Shown piece after piece: positions 19,543 to 39,156 of a stretch of DNA of 56,069 nucleotides; positions within the stretch are counted from its first letter, which is position 1, and each line of letters starts with the position of its first letter. The notes under the pieces are model-generated. The model saw nothing but the letters and a program-made list of their open reading frames with translations, was not told the origin of the DNA and did not search any database. Position numbers and translations under genes: made by a program. The DNA is taken from the NCBI GenBank assembly GCA_036005065.1, contig DASYQW010000222.1, forward strand, positions 1-56,069, in the 5' to 3' direction. The stretch comes from Candidatus Methylomirabilota bacterium. GTDB lineage: Bacteria > Methylomirabilota > Methylomirabilia > Rokubacteriales > DASRDR01.

Positions 19543-20265
19543 TCAGCCGAGCCGGGGGTTTCCAGAGCCCCCGGCTTTCGTTTCGCTGGCCGCCGAAGGG
19601 TCCGTGGCGGGAAGGGCGGGGCTGTCAGCCCTCAGGTAGGCGAGAACTTCCTCGGGGGTGTCGGCGAGGCGCAGGATGGCGAGCTCGTCGTCGTTGACCC
19701 GGCGGTCGCGCACCACGACGGCGCGGAGCCAATCCAGCAGCCCCTGCCAGTAGGCCGCGCCGAGTAAGATCACCGGGAAGCGCCGGATGCGCCGCGTCTG
19801 AACCAGGGTGGTGGCCTCGAAGAGCTCGTCGAGAGTACCGAAGCCTCCGGGAGCGATGACGAAGCCGATGGAATACTTGACGAACATCACCTTGCGCACG
19901 AAGAAATAGCGAAAGTTGAGGAGCCGGACGAGGTAGGGGTTCGGCGCCTGCTCCTGGGGCAAGTCGATGTTGAGACCGACGGAGAGCCCGCCCACCTCCA
20001 TGGCGCCCTTGTTGGCAGCCTCCATGATCCCGGGGCCGCCGCCGGTCAGGATCGTGAACCCGTGCGCGGCGAGCAGCCGGGCCGTCTTCTCCGCGAGGGC
20101 ATAGGCGGGGTCGTCCGGTGTGGCCCGCGAGGAGCCGAAAAAGGCGACCGCTGGAGGGATGTTCGCGAGCCCCTCGAACCCGGCGACGAACTCGTCCATG
20201 ATCTTGAAGACCCGCCAGGGATCCTCGGTATCGAGATGAATCGGAGTCGGCTGGAGCTCGGCCAC
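19543..20265 (-). CDS. TIGR00730/LOG family Rossmann-fold protein
   Basis: 240 aa. GGGPGIMEAANKG (75-87) and PGGFGTLDE (139-147) are the two conserved motifs of the LOG/lysine-decarboxylase-like family. Characterised members hydrolyse nucleoside 5'-monophosphates, including cytokinin ribotides; many bacterial ones are AMP or pyrimidine nucleosidases (PpnN-like). The N-terminal extension MDEFVAGFEGLANI is typical of the bacterial type. The C-terminal tail (from about 220) is poor in order and overlaps the convergent terminator. The DsbA-family gene lies only 9 nt upstream on the same strand. Confidence 0.9.
   Translation of the reverse strand: MAELQPTPIHLDTEDPWRVFKIMDEFVAGFEGLANIPPAVAFFGSSRATPDDPAYALAEKTARLLAAHGFTILTGGGPGIMEAANKGAMEVGGLSVGLNIDLPQEQAPNPYLVRLLNFRYFFVRKVMFVKYSIGFVIAPGGFGTLDELFEATTLVQTRRIRRFPVILLGAAYWQGLLDWLRAVVVRDRRVNDDELAILRLADTPEEVLAYLRADSPALPATDPSAASETKAGGSGNPRLG
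19550..19583 (+). terminator. rho-independent terminator of the RRM gene
   Basis: AGCCGGGGG (19550-19558), 9-nt loop, CCCCCGGCT (19568-19576), then ttcgttt. The 9-bp GC-rich stem plus T-rich tail fits an intrinsic terminator 50 nt past the RRM stop. It lies inside the 3' end of the convergent LOG-family gene. Confidence 0.7.
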
Positions 20266-20274
20266 GAGCGGGAA

Positions 20275-20871
20275 CTAGGCCGCGATGGTCCGGCGGTACT
20301 CGGTGAGGGGGACAGCCCCCACGATGCGGCGGCCATCCGCGAGCACGACGGTCGGGATGGCCCGCACGCCGTGCTCTCGCACGGCCGCCTCGTAGTCGTC
20401 GAGGACGGCCTGCCGGCCCTTCCCGGCCGTATAATCGGCCATGAAGCGTGCGCCGTCGACCTCGGGCACGGCCCGCACGACCGCTGCGACCTCGTCGGGG
20501 ATGCCGATGTTGACGCCGTCGCCGAAGAAGGCGGCGTAGAGCCTGATGTGCACCGCCTCGAACGCGGCGTCACCCTGCAGCCCCACACACTTGGCGGCTT
20601 CCAGGGCGGGAAGGCTCCAGGCGGGGAAGTCCGGTCGCTCCCACATCCGGAAGCTGACGCCGGTGTCGCGGGCCAGCTCCCGGCAGCGCCGCCAGGCTTC
20701 CTCGCGATAGGTGCCGGCGAAGGTGGCGGTCGGGTCGGGCGTGGGGCGGAGGGGAAAGGCACGCCAGCGGAGCGTGAGGCGGTCTCCCAGCTCCGCACGG
20801 AGCTGCCGGAGGCGCACGGCCGCCGGGTAGCACCAGGGTCAGAGGTAGTCGGCGTACTCGAGGATCTCCAC
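20275..20871 (-). CDS. DsbA/FrnE-family thiol oxidoreductase, predicted selenoprotein (UPWC)
   Basis: 198 aa when read from GTG 20871 through an in-frame UGA at 20841-20839. The sequence around it reads YADYL-U-PWCY, so UGA replaces the first Cys of the CxxC active site of thioredoxin-fold DsbA/FrnE proteins. A Shine-Dalgarno AGGA lies 5 nt before the GTG. The rest is an intact FrnE-like fold: AFPLRP, a helical insert with WSLPALEAAKCVGLQG, and HGVRAIPTVVLADGRRIVGA containing the cis-Pro loop. Without readthrough the protein would start at GTG 20817, lacking strand 1 and the active site. Function would be dithiol/selenol redox chemistry, probably cytosolic as no signal peptide exists. Alternatives are a pseudogene or a sequencing error. 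Confidence 0.72.
20788..20841 (-). promoter_or_regulatory. candidate Sec UGA and SECIS-like hairpins in the DsbA/FrnE gene
   Basis: UGA at 20841-20839. Fifteen nt on, CCGG-C-GGC (20826-20819) pairs with GCC-T-CCGG (20813-20806), with one C-T mismatch and the 5-nt loop CGTGC (20818-20814); the loop GU lies about 22 nt from the UGA. A second perfect stem CAGCTCC/GGAGCTG with loop GTGC lies at 20805-20788. The first fits the distance and loop rule of bacterial SECIS elements. Confidence 0.5.
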
Positions 20872-20966
20872 GGGGTTCCTCGGCTCGATTCTAGCCGCTG
20901 GCCGGCACGGCGGCAAGCCAACTGCGGGAAGATGGCGGTGCCGAGACGTGAAGAGACCGCGCGGAC

Positions 20967-21221
20967 ATGACGAGCGAGGGGCTCCGCTACGTCTTCGTCG
21001 TCCGCCGCTCTCAGAGCGACGTGTACAAGATGCTCAAGGAACGGTTCGCCGAAGACCCGGACGTGCGGGTCGTGTGGGACCGCCGGGCGGGCGACCGCCG
21101 AAAGGCCCGCCGCCCGGTCGGCCGCGATCAGCGCCGCGTCGACCGTCGGGGCGCGCAGCCCTCGACCTGGGAGACGTTTGGGTTCCTCGTCGTCATTGAA
21201 ACCCCCGAGGAGATGGCGTGA
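20967..21221 (+). CDS. small conserved-looking protein, unknown function
   Basis: 84 aa. The order is a beta strand (RYVFVVRR), a helix (SQSDVYKMLKERFAEDP), a strand (VRVVWDRR), a basic linker rich in Arg/Asp (GDRRKARRPVGRDQRRVDRR) and a final hydrophobic strand (TFGFLVVIE). The charged DRR repeats are unusual. No family is recognised. The next gene starts 10 nt after its stop, so the two are probably cotranscribed. Confidence 0.55.
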   Translation: MTSEGLRYVFVVRRSQSDVYKMLKERFAEDPDVRVVWDRRAGDRRKARRPVGRDQRRVDRRGAQPSTWETFGFLVVIETPEEMA

Positions 21222-26768: not shown

Positions 26769-27821
26769 GTGGCCGCGACGGAAGAGCCTGTTCGGCTGAC
26801 GACGCTCTCGCACGGGGCCGGCTGAGCCTGCAAGCTCGGGCCGGAGGATCTGGCCCAGGTGCTGCGGCTGCTCCCGCCGATTACCGATCCCAATGTGCTG
26901 GTGGGGCCCGAGACGTGCGACGACGCGGCGGTCTACCGGTTGAGCGACGACCTCGCCCTCGTCCTGACCGTGGACTACTTCACGCCCATCGTCGATGACC
27001 CCTACGCCTTCGGCCAGATCGCGGCCGCCAACTCGCTCTCCGACGTCTATGCCATGGGGGGGCGGCCGATCGCCATGCTCTCCATCGTGGGCTTCCCCAA
27101 AGACCGCCTGCCGTTCGGGGTCCTCGGCGAGATTCTCAAGGGCGGGGCTGAAAAGGGGCGCGAGGCGGGAGTCAGCGTGGTCGGCGGCCACAGCATCGAC
27201 GACGCGGAGCCGAAGATCGGGTACGCGGTGACCGGGCTCGTCCACCCCGGCCGGATCTGGAAGAACGTGGGCGCGCGCCCGGGCGACGCGCTGGTGCTGA
27301 CCAAGCCGCTCGGCACCGGCATCATCTCGACGGCGATCAAGAACGCCAAGGCCCGACCGGCCGCCATCGAGGCGGCCACCCGGACGATGGCGGCGCTGAA
27401 CCGGGCGGCCGCCGAGGCGGCCGGCGAGGTCCGGGTGCACGCCGTCACCGACGTCACGGGTTTCGGCCTCCTCGGGCACCTGCGCGAGATGACGTGCGGG
27501 TCCGGGGTGGCGGTCCGGCTGGAGGCGGGACGGATTCCCCTGTTGCCGGATGTCGTGGCCCTGGCCGAGGCCGGGATGGTGCCGGGCGGCACCAAGCGCA
27601 ACCTCCGCGCCACCGCGAGCGTGGTGCGCTGGGCCCCCGCGATTCCGGAGGCCCTCCGCGCCGTCATCGGGGATGCCCAGACCTCGGGCGGCCTCCTGGT
27701 GGCGACTCCCGAGGGCGAGGCGTTCCTTCGCGCGCTCGACCGGGCCGGCGTGTTGGAGGCGCGGCAGATCGGCACCGTCATCGGCGAGGACCCGGCTGGC
27801 ACCATCGAGGTCGGCTCCTAA
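26769..27821 (+). CDS. selD: selenide, water dikinase SelD, itself a predicted selenoprotein
   Basis: 350 aa when started at GTG 26769 and read through UGA 26823-26825 (residue 19). The N terminus is RLTTLSHGAG-U-ACKL, aligning with the catalytic Cys (and following Lys) of E. coli SelD. Sec-containing SelD is well known in bacteria. An earlier start is excluded by a stop at 26760-26762. Downstream motifs are intact: PETCDDAAVYRL, TVDYFTPIVDDPYAFGQIAAAN, SVVGGHSIDDAEPKIGYAVTG and TDVTGFGLLGHL. SelD makes selenophosphate from selenide and ATP, the Se donor for selenocysteine and selenouridine. A conventional call would begin at 26859 and lose the active site. A SECIS-like hairpin follows the UGA. 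Confidence 0.9.
26823..26860 (+). promoter_or_regulatory. candidate Sec UGA and SECIS hairpin in selD
   Basis: UGA at 26823-26825. GGGCCGG (26838-26844) pairs with CTGGCCC (26850-26856) with one G-U pair around the loop AGGAT (26845-26849). The stem extends below a C-A mismatch by three more pairs (26834-26836 with 26858-26860). The loop GG is about 21 nt from the UGA, in the range of bacterial SECIS elements. Confidence 0.6.
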
Positions 27822-33125: not shown

Positions 33126-34033
33126 GGGGGCGAGGACTGGATGGCCAGAGCGAGCTGAGCCGGCTCCGGTGGGGGCACACGCGGTGCCCGCCGGCGGTCG
33201 GCGATCTCGTACTGCTGCCTGAGCTCCCCGACCTGCCGGAGGACCGGCACCGACTCGCGGCGGGGGAGGGAGGCGCGCCCGCCGTAGAGCCGCTCGTAGC
33301 GGCGAAGCTCGTCGGGCCAGTCGCGCGCGAGGTGCGCGAGGAAGTGCTCGCGCGTCCCCGGCCGGAGATACAGGAGATTCGCCCACAGATGGGTCGCGCC
33401 CGCCTCGCGGGCCGCCCGGACCACCTCGGCGAGCTGCTCGGGACGATCGGAGAGCCCGGGAAGGATCGGCGCGATCCCCACGCCGGCCTTGATGCCGGCG
33501 TCCACGAGGGCTCGGAGGGCCCGCAGCCGCTGGCGGGGAGGCGCGGTCCCCGGCTCGGTCGTTCGCCACACGTCGGCATCGAGAGTCGGCACCGAGAAGT
33601 TCACGGAGACCTCGGCCCGGCGCGCCGCCTCCTGGAGGACGTCGATGTCACGGACGATCAGGGGCCCGCGCGTGATCAGACTGAATGGGTTGCCCACCGA
33701 TCCGAGGACCTCGAGACAGCCGCGCGTGAGGCGATAGCGGCCCTCGGCCGGCTGGTAGGGATCCGTCGCCGCGCCGATTGCGACATCCTCGCGCCGCCAG
33801 GACGGCCGGGTGACCTCCCGGCGAAGCACCTGGGCGATGTTGACCTTGACGCGGATCGACCGCCCGTAGCGGTCATCGGCCGGGCGATCGGCGCGCTGTT
33901 CGAAGGCGCGCACGTAGCAGAACGTGCAGCGGTGGGTGCAGCCCATGTACGGGTTCAAGGACCACTTGAAGTCCATCCCCGTGACCCGGTTCAGGGCTGC
34001 CCGGCAGGGCTCCTCGCGGTACTCGACGGGCAC
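33122..34033 (-). CDS. SPL-like radical SAM protein (Rv2578c family)
   Basis: 303 aa from GTG 34033. The cluster motif C32-x3-C36-x2-C39 (GCTHRCTFCYVR) is the radical SAM [4Fe-4S] site. The N-terminal LNPYMGCTHRCTFCYVR and IGAATDPYQPAEGRYRLTRG match the Rv2578c family, related to spore photoproduct lyase. Substrate unknown. It heads an operon with the DUF2071 and membrane protein. A promoter with an imperfect palindrome in its spacer lies immediately upstream. Confidence 0.92.
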   Translation of the reverse strand: MPVEYREEPCRAALNRVTGMDFKWSLNPYMGCTHRCTFCYVRAFEQRADRPADDRYGRSIRVKVNIAQVLRREVTRPSWRREDVAIGAATDPYQPAEGRYRLTRGCLEVLGSVGNPFSLITRGPLIVRDIDVLQEAARRAEVSVNFSVPTLDADVWRTTEPGTAPPRQRLRALRALVDAGIKAGVGIAPILPGLSDRPEQLAEVVRAAREAGATHLWANLLYLRPGTREHFLAHLARDWPDELRRYERLYGGRASLPRRESVPVLRQVGELRQQYEIADRRRAPRVPPPEPAQLALAIQSSPP

Positions 34034-34039
34034 GAGGTC

Positions 34040-34068
34040 ACTATATCAACACCTGTTAAGCCACACAA
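34040..34068 (-). promoter_or_regulatory. promoter with embedded palindrome, SPL-like operon
   Basis: On the minus strand TTGTGT (34068-34063), 17-nt spacer, TATAGT (34045-34040), GTG at 34033. The spacer holds TTAACA-GG-TGTTGA (34059-34046), an 11-of-12 dyad, well placed to be an operator. Confidence 0.5.
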
Positions 34069-34148
34069 GGGTGGGTCTCGACCGGATGCCGCCGCGATGC
34101 CCGCGAGGTGGGCGTCCCTGCCAGGGGCCGGGAAATGGCCGCGCTTCC

Positions 34149-34178
34149 TTGACGCGTGCCCGTCGCGCGTGTTAGATG
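34149..34178 (+). promoter_or_regulatory. possible promoter for threonine synthase
   Basis: TTGACG (34149-34154) followed after 18 nt by TAGATG (34173-34178). The -10 is weak. The ATG is at 34224. Confidence 0.35.
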
Positions 34179-34223
34179 TGTCAGATATCGTCGGGGCTCG
34201 AATCCCCGGGAGGACCCGGCCGA

Positions 34224-35471
34224 ATGGAAAGGGTGAAGGGGCTCAAGTGCCGGGAGTGCGCCCGCGGCTATCCTCTGGCCCCACTTCACGTTTGCGACTT
34301 CTGCTTCGGCCCGCTGGAGGTGGACTACCGTTACGAGGCGCTGCGGGGGCTGGTGACTCGGGACCGCATCGCCGCCGGTCCTCCCAGCATCTGGCGCTAC
34401 AAGGACCTGCTGCCGGTCGAGGGGGAGGTCGCCATCGGCCGCCACGCGGGGTACACCCCTCTCGTCCGCGCCTGGAACCTGGGTGAGGAACTGGGCGTCC
34501 GCGAGCTGTACGTCAAGAACGACGCGGTCTGCCATCCGACCTGCTCGTTCAAGGACCGGGTGGTCAGCGTCGCGGTCACCAAGGCCAAGGAATTCGGCTT
34601 CGACACGGTCGCCTGCGCGTCTACCGGAAACCTGGCCAACTCGGTGGCTGCTCACGCGGCCCAGGCCCGGCTGCGCTCTTTCGTCTTCATCCCGGCCGAC
34701 CTCGAGCCGGGGAAGGTGCTCGGCACGCTCGTCTATGGTCCGGTGCTGGTTGCAGTCGAGGGAACGTACGACGAGGTGAACCGCCTCTGCTCCGAAGTGG
34801 CCGACCAGTACCCCTGGGCGTTCGCCAACATCAATCTCCGGCCCTTTTACGCCGAAGGGTCCAAGACCTACGGCTACGAGATCGCCGAGCAGCTCGGCTG
34901 GCACGCCCCGGCCCACGTCGTGGTGCCCTGCGCCGGCGGGTCGCTCCTCACCAAGATCTGGAAGGCCTTCCAGGAGCTCCACGCGCTCGACCTCATCGGG
35001 GACGTCCGGACGCGGATGTACGCGGCCCAGGCGGCCGGATGCGGCCCTATCGTGACGATGATCAAGCAGGACTCGGACACGCTCGTCCCCGTCCGTCCCA
35101 ACACCATCGCCAAGTCGCTGGCCATCGGGAATCCGGCCGACGGCTACTACGCGTACCGCGTCGTGAAGGACTCCGGCGGCGCCGGCGAGCACGCGACCGA
35201 CGAGGAGATCCTGGAGGCGATGGGGCTCCTGGCGCGCACCGAGGGGATCTTCACGGAGACCGCCGGGGGCGTGACGCTGGCGGCCGCCCGGAAGCTCATC
35301 GATCGGGGCGTGATTCCCCGCGACGAGTCGATCGTCGTCTGTATCACCGGCAACGGGCTCAAGACGGTCGAGGCGCTCGGGTCGCGGCTCTCCGAGCCCG
35401 TGCGGATCCGCCCGAACGTGGCGGCCTTCGATCGGGCCCTGGCGGATCTGAAGACCCTTACCCAATCCTGA
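34224..35471 (+). CDS. thrC: threonine synthase (fold-type II PLP enzyme)
   Basis: 415 aa from ATG 34224, with GGGAGG upstream; an ATG at 34176 lacks a site. An N-terminal zinc ribbon is formed by C9, C12, C24 and C27. The PLP Lys is K110 in TCSFKDRVVSVAV. Other family motifs: ACASTGNLANSVAAHAAQA, PCAGGSLLTKIWK and TGNGLKTVEA. Threonine synthase converts O-phosphohomoserine to threonine. The next two genes encode a MoaD/ThiS-like carrier and its E1-like activator, a context also seen for thiocarboxylate-dependent PLP sulfhydrylases such as CysM with CysO, so a sulfur role is possible. Confidence 0.9.
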   Translation: MERVKGLKCRECARGYPLAPLHVCDFCFGPLEVDYRYEALRGLVTRDRIAAGPPSIWRYKDLLPVEGEVAIGRHAGYTPLVRAWNLGEELGVRELYVKNDAVCHPTCSFKDRVVSVAVTKAKEFGFDTVACASTGNLANSVAAHAAQARLRSFVFIPADLEPGKVLGTLVYGPVLVAVEGTYDEVNRLCSEVADQYPWAFANINLRPFYAEGSKTYGYEIAEQLGWHAPAHVVVPCAGGSLLTKIWKAFQELHALDLIGDVRTRMYAAQAAGCGPIVTMIKQDSDTLVPVRPNTIAKSLAIGNPADGYYAYRVVKDSGGAGEHATDEEILEAMGLLARTEGIFTETAGGVTLAAARKLIDRGVIPRDESIVVCITGNGLKTVEALGSRLSEPVRIRPNVAAFDRALADLKTLTQS

Positions 35472-35520: not shown

Positions 35521-35799
35521 ATGCCTGTCCTGGTGCGTATTCCGACCCCTCTTCGCCGCGTCACCAACGGCATCGGCGAGGTCAAGGGGGGGGGCAAGGA
35601 TGTCGCGGCGCTGATCGACGATCTGGAACGCCAGTATCCCGGGCTCCGCGATCGACTGGTCGAGGAATCCGGCGAGCTCAGGCGGTTCATCAACATCTAC
35701 GTGAACGAGGAAGACATCCGTTTCCTCTCGGGGAAGGGGACCGCGCTCAAGGACGGGGACGAAGTCTCCATCGTGCCGGCCATCGCGGGAGGGTGGTGA
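35521..35799 (+). CDS. MoaD/ThiS-like ubiquitin-fold sulfur carrier ending GGW
   Basis: 92 aa with a good ribosome binding site (AAAGGAGG, 35502-35509 region). Beta-grasp fold: VLVRIPTPLRRV, EVKGGGKDVAALIDDLERQ, VNEEDIRFLSGKGTALKDGDEVSIVPAIAGGW. The C-terminal GG that must be adenylated and thiocarboxylated is followed by one extra Trp, so the tail would need trimming first. The closest relatives in style are archaeal and actinobacterial MoaD-like and CysO proteins. It lies between threonine synthase and the ThiF/MoeB-like enzyme. Confidence 0.9.
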   Translation: MPVLVRIPTPLRRVTNGIGEVKGGGKDVAALIDDLERQYPGLRDRLVEESGELRRFINIYVNEEDIRFLSGKGTALKDGDEVSIVPAIAGGW

Positions 35800-35840
35800 G
35801 GCGCGAACATCCGACGGGCGGCCGTGACCCGAGGCGCTCG

Positions 35841-36605
35841 ATGTACGTTGAACTGACGGAGGAAAGACTGCGGCGGTACAGCCGCCAGGTCATCCTGCCG
35901 GAGGTCGGCGGGGCCGGGCAAGCCCGTCTCTTCGCCTCCCGCGTCCTGGTGGTCGGGGCCGGCGGTCTCGGCTCGCCGGCCGCGCTCTACCTGGCGGGAG
36001 CGGGGATCGGCACGCTCGGGCTCGTGGACTCCGACGCGGTCGAGCTCTCGAACCTCCCGCGACAGATCCTCCACGGCACCAAGGATCTCGAGCGCCCGAA
36101 GGTAGACTCGGCTCAGGCGCGGCTCGAGGAGCTGAACCCGGAGGTGCGAGTCGTGCCGCACCACGTGCGACTCGCGGCCGACACCGCGCGGGCCCTCATC
36201 GAGGACTACCAGGTCGTCGTCGAGGGCTCGGACAGCCTGACCACCAAGCTCCTGGTCAACGACGCCTGCGTGGCCCTCGGGGTGCCCCTCGTCGTGGCCG
36301 GGGTCGTGGGCTGGGACGGCCAGCTCCTGGTGGTGCGCCCGGGCGCCACCGCTTGCTACCGATGCGTCGTCCGCACCGCGCCGCCGGCGGGAGCGGTGCC
36401 GTCGTGCCAGGAGGCCGGCATTCTGGGGCCGATCGCGGGCATCGTGGGAAGCCTCCAGGCGACGGAGGCGTTGAAGCTCTGCCTCGGGCTCGACAGCCCC
36501 ATGGCCGGTCACCTCCTCTTCTTCGATGGCCGCTCGGGGGAGACGTCGTGGGTGTCGGTACGCCGGGACCCGACCTGTCCGGCATGCGGGAGTTGTGATC
36601 GATGA
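35841..36605 (+). CDS. moeB: ThiF/MoeB-type adenylyltransferase (E1-like)
   Basis: 254 aa from ATG 35841. The nucleotide-binding GAGGLGSP is at 39-46, with RYSRQVILPEVGGAGQ before it, DSDAVELSNLPRQILH for the adenylation site, and a zinc site formed by C172/C175 and C246/C249. C189 in PSCQEAG is the position of the proposed catalytic or acceptor Cys. There is no rhodanese domain, so sulfur must come from another protein. It would adenylate the C terminus of the adjacent MoaD-like carrier. Whether it serves Moco, thiamine or amino-acid sulfur cannot be decided. Confidence 0.92.
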   Translation: MYVELTEERLRRYSRQVILPEVGGAGQARLFASRVLVVGAGGLGSPAALYLAGAGIGTLGLVDSDAVELSNLPRQILHGTKDLERPKVDSAQARLEELNPEVRVVPHHVRLAADTARALIEDYQVVVEGSDSLTTKLLVNDACVALGVPLVVAGVVGWDGQLLVVRPGATACYRCVVRTAPPAGAVPSCQEAGILGPIAGIVGSLQATEALKLCLGLDSPMAGHLLFFDGRSGETSWVSVRRDPTCPACGSCDR

Positions 36606-37777
36606 CGACGCCGCGGATCTCGAAGCGCGTCCAGGGGTTCACCGAGTCGGTGATCCGAGAGATGACCCGGGTGAACGCCGAGCACGGGGGCGTGAACCTG
36701 GCCCAGGGGTTCCCGAACTTCCCGCCGCCCAAGGAGCTGGCTGAGGCGGCGCACCGGGCGATCGATGGCGACTTCCACCAGTACGCGATCACCTGGGGAG
36801 CGCGGAACCTGCGCGAGGCGATCGCCGCCAAGTTCGAGCATTTCTACGGCAAGCCGGTGGATCCCGAACGGCAGGTGACGGTCTGCTGCGGCTCGACGGA
36901 GGCGATGCTCTCGAGCCTCCTGGCCGTCCTCGACCCCGGCGACGAGATCATCATCTTCGAGCCGTTCTACGAGAACTACGGACCCGGAGCGATCATCTCC
37001 GGAGCCCGACCGGTGTACGTCCCGCTCGAGCCGCCGGCGTTCTCGTTCGACCCCGACCGGCTCGCCCGGGCCTTCACTCCCCGCACGAAGGCCATCATCT
37101 TCAACAGCCCGAACAACCCCACCGGAAAGGTCTTCAACCTGCGGGAGCTCGAGTCGATCGCCGAGCTCTGCCAGAAGCACGACGTCCTCGCCATTACCGA
37201 CGAGATCTACGAGCACATCGTGTTCGACGGCCACCGGCACATCCCGATCGCGACGCTTCCCGGGATGTGGGACCGGACGATCACCATCTCGGGTGTCTCC
37301 AAGTCGTACTCGGTGACGGGCTGGCGGATCGGCTACACGATCAGCTCTCCCGAGATCGCCGTCGGGATCCGCCGCGCCCACGACTTCGTGACCGTGGGCG
37401 CGCCGGCTCCCCTGCAGGAGGCGGCGGTGACCGCCCTTCACCTGCCGGACAGCTACTATCTGAGCCTCCGTGAGGCGTATCAGGCCCGTCGGGATCTCCT
37501 CTGCCCGCTGCTCGAGAAGGCCGGGTTCCCCATCTTCAGGCCGTCCGGGGCCTATTACGTGTTGACGGAGTGCCGGCACTTCCTCCAGCGCTACGGCCTG
37601 CCCGATGACACGGCCTTCGCCATGTACCTCGTGAAGGAGGTCGGAGTCGCGACGGTTCCGGGATCCTCCTTCTACGCCCACCCGGAGCTCGGCCGGACCA
37701 AGATCCGCTTCTGCTTTCCGAAGACCGACGACGTCCTCCTGGACGCCGGACGCCGCCTGCAGGCGCTCGCCCGCTGA
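36602..37777 (+). CDS. class I/II aminotransferase
   Basis: 391 aa, starting within the ATGA of the MoeB-like stop. PLP Lys is K234 in SGVSKSYSVTGWRIGY. NSPNNPTGKVF and ITDEIYEHIVFDG carry the Asn and Asp/Tyr cofactor contacts, and KIRFCFPK has the carboxylate-binding Arg. The sequence is closest in style to kynurenine/glutamine transaminase K and methionine aminotransferases. Cytosolic. It is part of an operon from the MoaD-like gene to glycerate 2-kinase. Confidence 0.93.
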   Translation: MTTPRISKRVQGFTESVIREMTRVNAEHGGVNLAQGFPNFPPPKELAEAAHRAIDGDFHQYAITWGARNLREAIAAKFEHFYGKPVDPERQVTVCCGSTEAMLSSLLAVLDPGDEIIIFEPFYENYGPGAIISGARPVYVPLEPPAFSFDPDRLARAFTPRTKAIIFNSPNNPTGKVFNLRELESIAELCQKHDVLAITDEIYEHIVFDGHRHIPIATLPGMWDRTITISGVSKSYSVTGWRIGYTISSPEIAVGIRRAHDFVTVGAPAPLQEAAVTALHLPDSYYLSLREAYQARRDLLCPLLEKAGFPIFRPSGAYYVLTECRHFLQRYGLPDDTAFAMYLVKEVGVATVPGSSFYAHPELGRTKIRFCFPKTDDVLLDAGRRLQALAR

Positions 37778-37788
37778 GGCGAGCGCCC

Positions 37789-39156
37789 GTGACCGACCTC
37801 GCCGCGCTGCGCCGCGCGGCCCGCCAGATCCTCGACGTCGCCATCGCCGCCGGCGATGCCCGCCGCCTGACCGAGCACGCGCTCCGGCTCGAGGACGGCC
37901 GCCTCTTGGTGGCCAGCCGGAGCTTCGAGCTCGGGCGGGTCCGCCGGATCGTGGTGGTCGGGGTGGGGAAGGCCTCGGAGGCGATGGCTGACGCGATCGA
38001 GGACGTGCTGGGCACGCGCATCGCCGACGGGCTGGTCGTCGTCAAGGAGGCGCGCGGGGCGCGCTCGGGGCGCATCCGTGTCGTGGAAGCCGGCCACCCA
38101 CTCCCCGACGAGCGGGGCCGGGCGGCGGCCGCGGAGATCCTGCAACTGGTGCGTGGCGCGGGGCCCGACGACCTCGTGGTGTGCCTGATCTCCGGTGGCG
38201 GCTCGGCCCTGGCGCCGGCCCCGGTCCCCGGCATCGGTCTGGCGGACAAGCAGACGGTGACGCGCCTCTTGCTGGAGACCGGGGCGACCATCAACGAGCT
38301 GAACACGGTTCGCAAGCACCTCTCCTTCCTGAAGGGAGGCCAGCTCGCCCGGGCGGCCTCCCCGGCCTCCGTCGTCGCGCTCCTTCTCTCCGATGTGATC
38401 GGCGACCCCGTCGACGTCATCGCCTCGGGGCCGACGGCGCCCGACCCGACGACGTTCGCCGATGCCCTCGCCGTGCTCGAGCGGTTCGGTCTGCGCGCCC
38501 GGGTTCCCGACTCGGTGCGGGCGCACCTCGAGGCGGGCGCGCGAGGCGACGTCCCCGACACGCCGAAGCCCGACGATCCGGCGTTCGCGAGGGTGACCAA
38601 CGTCGTCATCGGCAACAACCGCCTCGTCGCCACGGCGGCAACAGAGGAGGCGGCGCGGCTCGGCTACCCGCCGCTCTTCCTGACACGCCAGATTCAGGGC
38701 GAAGCCCGGGAGGTCGCTCGCGTCTTCGCCGCGGTGCTGCGCGACGCGGCGGCGGCGGGCGCTCCGGTCGGCCGGCCCGGCTGCCTCCTCGCCGCCGGGG
38801 AGACGACCGTCACCGTGCGCGGTCCGGGGAAGGGAGGGCGGTGCCAGGAGTTCTGCCTCGCGCTGGCCCCGATGCTGGCGGAGCTGCCCGGAGTGGTCGT
38901 GCTGGCGGCCGGGACCGATGGCAGCGACGGGCCGACGGACGCCGCGGGGGCAGTCGTGGATCCGACGACGGTCGCCCGGGCGCGCGCTCTGGGACTCGAC
39001 CCGCGTCCGGCGCTCGCCGCGAACGACGCCTACACCTTCTTCTCGGGCCTCGGCGACCTCGTCGTCACCGGACCGACGGGGACCAATCTCCTGGATCTCT
39101 ACCTGGGGCTCGTCGGCGACCCCACGGATTCGCGCCAGGCGAGGCATCTCGCATGA
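37789..39156 (+). CDS. glycerate 2-kinase (MOFRL family)
   Basis: 455 aa from GTG 37789, 11 nt after the aminotransferase. The GckA/TtuD type is recognised by VVVGVGKASEAMADAIEDVL, EAGHPLPDERG, CLISGGGSALAPAP, TINELNTVRKHLSFLKGGQLA, LLLSDVIGDPVDVIASGPT, and the C-terminal MOFRL part (GGETTVTV-type AAGETTVTVRGPGKGGRCQE, TDGSDGPTDAAGAVVD, GDLVVTGPTGTN). It phosphorylates glycerate to 2-phosphoglycerate. With the aminotransferase and Hyi this suggests glyoxylate/serine or hydroxypyruvate assimilation. Confidence 0.94.
   Translation: MTDLAALRRAARQILDVAIAAGDARRLTEHALRLEDGRLLVASRSFELGRVRRIVVVGVGKASEAMADAIEDVLGTRIADGLVVVKEARGARSGRIRVVEAGHPLPDERGRAAAAEILQLVRGAGPDDLVVCLISGGGSALAPAPVPGIGLADKQTVTRLLLETGATINELNTVRKHLSFLKGGQLARAASPASVVALLLSDVIGDPVDVIASGPTAPDPTTFADALAVLERFGLRARVPDSVRAHLEAGARGDVPDTPKPDDPAFARVTNVVIGNNRLVATAATEEAARLGYPPLFLTRQIQGEAREVARVFAAVLRDAAAAGAPVGRPGCLLAAGETTVTVRGPGKGGRCQEFCLALAPMLAELPGVVVLAAGTDGSDGPTDAAGAVVDPTTVARARALGLDPRPALAANDAYTFFSGLGDLVVTGPTGTNLLDLYLGLVGDPTDSRQARHLA

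Follow-up and report, generated by a model that had tools for sequence, protein, structure and literature searches.

A minus-strand reading frame for a DsbA/FrnE-like protein, located in the window analysed here (the whole 56,069-nucleotide stretch of DNA), is interrupted by a UGA codon at its active site. Is the gene broken, or is the UGA read as selenocysteine (Sec)? The frame runs from a GTG start at 20871 to a TAG stop at 20277–20275, a span of 198 residues with the UGA counted as Sec, and the UGA at 20841–20839 is its sole interruption. The first ten codons spell VEILEYADYL and the codons that follow the UGA spell PWCYPAAVRL, which places the UGA at residue 11, the first position of a U11-P-W-C14 active site (UPWC in place of CPWC). 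Re-reading the frame gave the same features as the original prediction, namely GTG at 20871, AGGA 5 nt upstream, ten residues, the UGA and then PWCY. The FrnE-like part after the UGA is open to the stop, as had been claimed, but it measures 187 residues rather than 185. We place the coding sequence at 20275–20871 on the minus strand, based on its translation, its Pfam DSBA match, its start context and its predicted fold, and the Sec codon at 20839–20841 on the same strand, based on translation and homologues. With support from the Sec machinery of the genome and from the recurrence of TGA at this one codon in 71 loci, we regard it as nearly certain that this is a genuine selenoprotein gene in which UGA 20841–20839 specifies Sec. 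The computational evidence comprises codon conservation, machinery, a covarying loop, a predicted promoter and a predicted fold; Sec insertion in vivo we infer.

Homologue searches covered 195 relatives together with named genomes, the latter drawn first from Rokubacteria/Rokuibacteriota and Methylomirabilota and then from Chloroflexi and Myxococcota. At the 136 homologous loci that were readable at the UGA site, the codon was TGA in 71, TGC in 49 and TGT in 16; no other codon occurred in any of the 136. Agreement on TGA or TGC/TGT in every aligned locus puts the position of the UGA beyond chance. With Cys codons in 65 loci and TGA in the remainder, the UGA does fall on the first catalytic Cys, and the alternation between UGA and Cys that had been anticipated among homologues is found, with nothing else at the site. 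The TGA loci represent 65 distinct sequences from many separate assemblies. In the closest clade, which is marked by the motif PAAVR, TGA is present in all 44 distinct sequences, and the frames downstream are intact at protein identities of 45–71%. These counts refute a reading of the gene as a pseudogene or a sequencing error, in which the true codon would be TGC or TGT or the UGA a recent nonsense mutation. Although Cys homologues have TGC or TGT at the site, one base away from TGA, decay or error would not become fixed at a single codon, let alone throughout the closest clade and with open frames at such divergence; nor does base-calling error explain TGA at one codon in so many loci and assemblies. 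We give this reading almost no chance of being correct.

On a quick tree with many weak forks, the site changed between Sec and Cys at least six times. One tight subfamily mixes the two forms, with Sec in L129 and L132–L135 and Cys in L054–L057 and L059; its members make up a second, related DsbA-like group in the same order, with high identity to one another. TGA also occupies the same site in more distant DsbA-like genes, including L130 and L136 (UPYC), L137–L147 (UPWC), L148 (UCWC) and L149 (UPFC). Judged by their sequences, these distant genes, found in related and unrelated genomes, suggest repeated use of Sec in the DsbA superfamily.

The original prediction depended on selA, selB and tRNA-Sec, and all three are present in the genome (G000, a relative of Rokubacteria/Methylomirabilota) on a single contig, C299: selB at 33461–35353 (363.8 bits), selA at 35585–36682 (516 bits) and a tRNA-Sec with anticodon tca (UCA) at 38012–38105 (76.2 bits). 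The UGA-containing selD that had been noted 6 kb away in the window is also real. The gene, on the plus strand at about 26769–27818, has AIRS and AIRS_C domains, and its translation places an in-frame TGA at 26823–26825 within the motif HGAGUACK, so that two Sec genes lie within 6 kb of each other. Given the UGA in this motif, SelD, the enzyme that provides the selenophosphate used to make Sec, is itself a selenoprotein. The genome therefore holds selA, selB, selC (tRNA-Sec) and selD, the set by which a bacterial selenoprotein is judged. Among 43 genomes with a closest-clade UGA gene, SelA scored over the cut-off in 36. Of the seven SelA-less genomes, G083 and G088 have selB over the cut-off, and tRNA-Sec is over the cut-off in three (G083, G087 and G088). 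In G007 and G026, selB is represented only by short N-terminal pieces close to the ends of contigs; G042 and G051 have a completeness of 77–78%. We read the missing machinery in these last four genomes as presumed assembly gaps.

Downstream of the UGA, folding and alignment identify a bacterial SECIS hairpin at 20806–20826 on the minus strand (CCGG-C-GGC-CGUGC-GCC-U-CCGG), which comprises 4 bp (CCGG/CCGG), a C-U mismatch, 3 bp (GGC/GCC) and the loop CGUGC. In the alignment, the apical loop (20814–20818, minus strand) has an invariant GU inside a covarying pair, here C-G. The loop begins 20 nt from the UGA, and its G is the 22nd nucleotide after it. As given in PMC13188914, the bacterial SECIS model places a G in the first two positions of a 3–9 nt loop, with a spacing of 16–37 nt and a minimum free energy of −7.5 or below; the hairpin, with its CGUGC loop, 20 nt spacing and −18.7 kcal/mol, agrees with this model on each point. 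However, a loose bacterial SECIS test was passed by 416 of the 1022 TGA triplets in the window (41%). The model is unspecific in the GC-rich DNA of the window, and the hairpin alone is weak evidence. As a single sequence it is no more stable than its shuffles (energy z-score −0.26), and an Rfam search of 20600–21100 gave no bacterial SECIS match, only chance hits. Thus the predicted hairpin is present, with the predicted loop at the predicted distance, but by itself it says no more than chance.

The loop is more informative when compared across genes. The hairpin is kept in most UGA-clade genes and is mostly missing from the Cys homologues. The GU of the loop is flanked by the third positions of two codons, Ala(7) and Val(8) counted after the UGA. 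In the 44 UGA genes, these positions are C..G in 17, G..C in 20 and G..T in 7, so that all 44 are paired, where 53% would be expected if the third positions were independent; in the Cys homologues, 6 of 19 are paired (Fisher 2.6e-9). The mutual information of the two positions is 0.96 bit, against 0.43 for the next codon pair, and since both are synonymous, protein selection fails to explain their link. The pair switches type at least six times on the tree, but only four independent switches lie on strongly supported branches (sign test p 0.125), and, because the sequences are related, the Fisher value overstates their independence. From sequence comparison, the covariation around GU fits recognition by SelB. 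The SECIS loop of Escherichia coli fdhF has the same x-GU-y form. Among Cys members of the mixed subfamily, there was no clear sign of SECIS decay, and some keep GCCG-CGGUG-CGGC; retention of the hairpin in these members may mark a recent change from Sec to Cys.

In the decoding step that we propose, SelB-GTP carrying Sec-tRNA(UCA) would bind the hairpin, and the hairpin, its loop starting 20 nt past the codon, would direct the decoding of UGA 20841–20839 as Sec. An in-frame UGA can in principle be suppressed, and the codon might instead be read as another amino acid (under code 4, for example, as Trp) or through low-level near-cognate readthrough, in either case with no Sec. We consider this highly improbable: the homologous residue is always Cys and never Trp, the genome has tRNA-Sec, SelA, SelB and a Sec-containing SelD, and the loop covaries around GU in the manner fitting SelB.

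The assignment to the DsbA/FrnE family also held. The sequence downstream of the UGA has a Pfam DSBA match at 3.3e-12 (47 bits, cut-off 25.6), and the protein thus combines a DSBA domain with a UxxC active site, the combination that defines a DsbA-like selenoprotein (PF01323, UxxC). The closest sequence match in the PDB is FrnE of Deinococcus radiodurans (1e-4). An AlphaFold2 model, built from 22 window and locus sequences, has a pLDDT of 92.5 and a pTM of 0.89. By Foldseek, this predicted fold ranks FrnE structures at the top (5cp1: 4.7e-9, TM 0.81), with YjbH, HCCA isomerase-like and DsbA proteins next in rank. Residues D8, Y9, P12, W13, C14 and P173 are invariant in the family alignment, as is the site of residue 11; P173, in the loop IPT, occupies the cis-Pro position. 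With FrnE as its nearest solved structure and an active site of the CP(W/F)C type, the protein has two features of the FrnE subfamily (cd03024). Like D. radiodurans FrnE (5cnw, 5cp1 and 5xwh; TM 0.81–0.83), which has a CPWC active site, it is predicted to be cytoplasmic. It differs in its roughly 20% identity, in replacing the first Cys with Sec, and in being shorter, with no C-terminal CX4C pair; the only other Cys residues of the 198 are 63 and 95. Many FrnE-subfamily proteins have this C-terminal CXXXXC pair, and some are without it (PMC8945050). Because the pair is missing, we name the protein FrnE-like and not FrnE, although its absence is shared with some accepted members.

We also considered the Rcas_1661 family thioredoxin-like (seleno)lipoprotein (NCBIfam NF041057, DsbG-like), which shares a thioredoxin-like UxxC and a weak similarity over residues 85–197. 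The score of 38.9 bits, where the cut-off is 190, rules out membership, and the protein passed none of the NCBIfam models. A plasmid search returned only weak matches, in Caballeronia.

The program-made list of standard open reading frames reports only 20275–20817 for this gene. As had been foreseen, ordinary gene calling misses the gene as we define it, losing the N-terminus and the active site with a start at 20817. Automatic annotation probably does likewise, and a downstream start (for example GTG 20817, giving a 180-residue frame), with the UGA ending a short upstream frame and the protein working without a CxxC, would match such a call. Yet the family conserves both the stretch ahead of the UGA and the PWCY that follows it, D8, Y9, P12, W13 and C14 are among the invariant residues, and a downstream start would delete the active site and, from the predicted fold, the first β-strand and part of helix 1. 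The promoter and an ATG or GTG start, moreover, lie upstream in the relatives, where the start position is kept within a few codons. By sequence, a putative ribosome-binding site (AGGA, 20877–20880, minus strand) precedes the GTG by 5 nt. Farther upstream, a promoter scan predicted a sigma-70-type promoter, TTGCCG-17-TAGAAT (20888–20916, minus strand), the sole promoter in the 401 bases scanned, with none in shuffles; its TAGAAT box, just 5′ of the start, is near-invariant among relatives. We judge a downstream start to be vanishingly unlikely and retain the GTG at 20871 as the start of the selenoprotein. Nine bases past the TAG stop, a LOG/'possible lysine decarboxylase' gene (PF03641, 6.1e-33) occupies 19543–20265 on the minus strand and possibly shares a transcript with the DsbA/FrnE-like gene.

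The expected product would be a soluble 198-residue protein of the DsbA superfamily, with U11-P-W-C14 and the cis-Pro loop at its active site. It is probably a cytoplasmic disulfide reductase or isomerase. This is likelier than a periplasmic oxidase because an active site 11 residues from the start is too close for a signal peptide to precede it. From established knowledge of DsbA and FrnE, U11, the more nucleophilic active-site position, would attack substrate disulfides, and C14 would resolve the mixed selenylsulfide. The enzyme would then be re-reduced by thioredoxin or a low-molecular-weight thiol, a step we propose because the protein is without the C-terminal CX4C pair of FrnE.

A 2005 report on the Sargasso Sea (PMC1088965) described DsbA-like selenoproteins with UxxC (COG2761/PF01323); 'DsbA 1' selenoproteins were numerous in GOS (PMC2398784), and the family was counted in 41 organisms in 2016 (PMC5029168). 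PMC13188914 has an entry for 'DsbA-like protein form 1' and refers to a Methylomirabilota genome for which 63 selenoprotein genes were predicted. The present protein resembles this catalogued family in its Pfam DSBA domain, in having Sec at the first active-site position, in the bacterial SECIS right after the UGA and in its widespread Cys homologues. The published examples, as far as the available text of these sources goes, come from marine metagenomes and listed genomes, whereas in the Rokubacteria clade only the Sec form was seen (44/44). Rokubacteria/Methylomirabilota are not named for the family in the accessible parts of the catalogues (PMC1088965, PMC2398784 and PMC13188914), and our non-exhaustive literature search found no DsbA-like UxxC selenoprotein in Rokubacteria; an earlier specific description is possible. 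The selenoprotein family has thus been known since 2005, and what is added here is a clade with Sec throughout, in an understudied phylum, together with the clean covariation of the loop.

What looked like a pseudogene becomes a selenoprotein gene with good support, in a phylum that is known almost entirely through metagenomes; ordinary gene calling would shorten the gene and drop its active site. The clade with Sec alone and the close Sec/Cys subfamily offer a natural comparison of what Sec contributes to a DsbA/FrnE-type enzyme. Tentatively, and with less confidence than we place in the reductase or isomerase assignment, the protein of the Rokubacteria/Methylomirabilota clade could be an obligate selenoenzyme, its Cys form lost or never arisen, serving a function, such as reducing an unusual substrate, for which Cys would be inadequate. 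The TGA form of the gene is retained in dozens of relatives from soil and groundwater.
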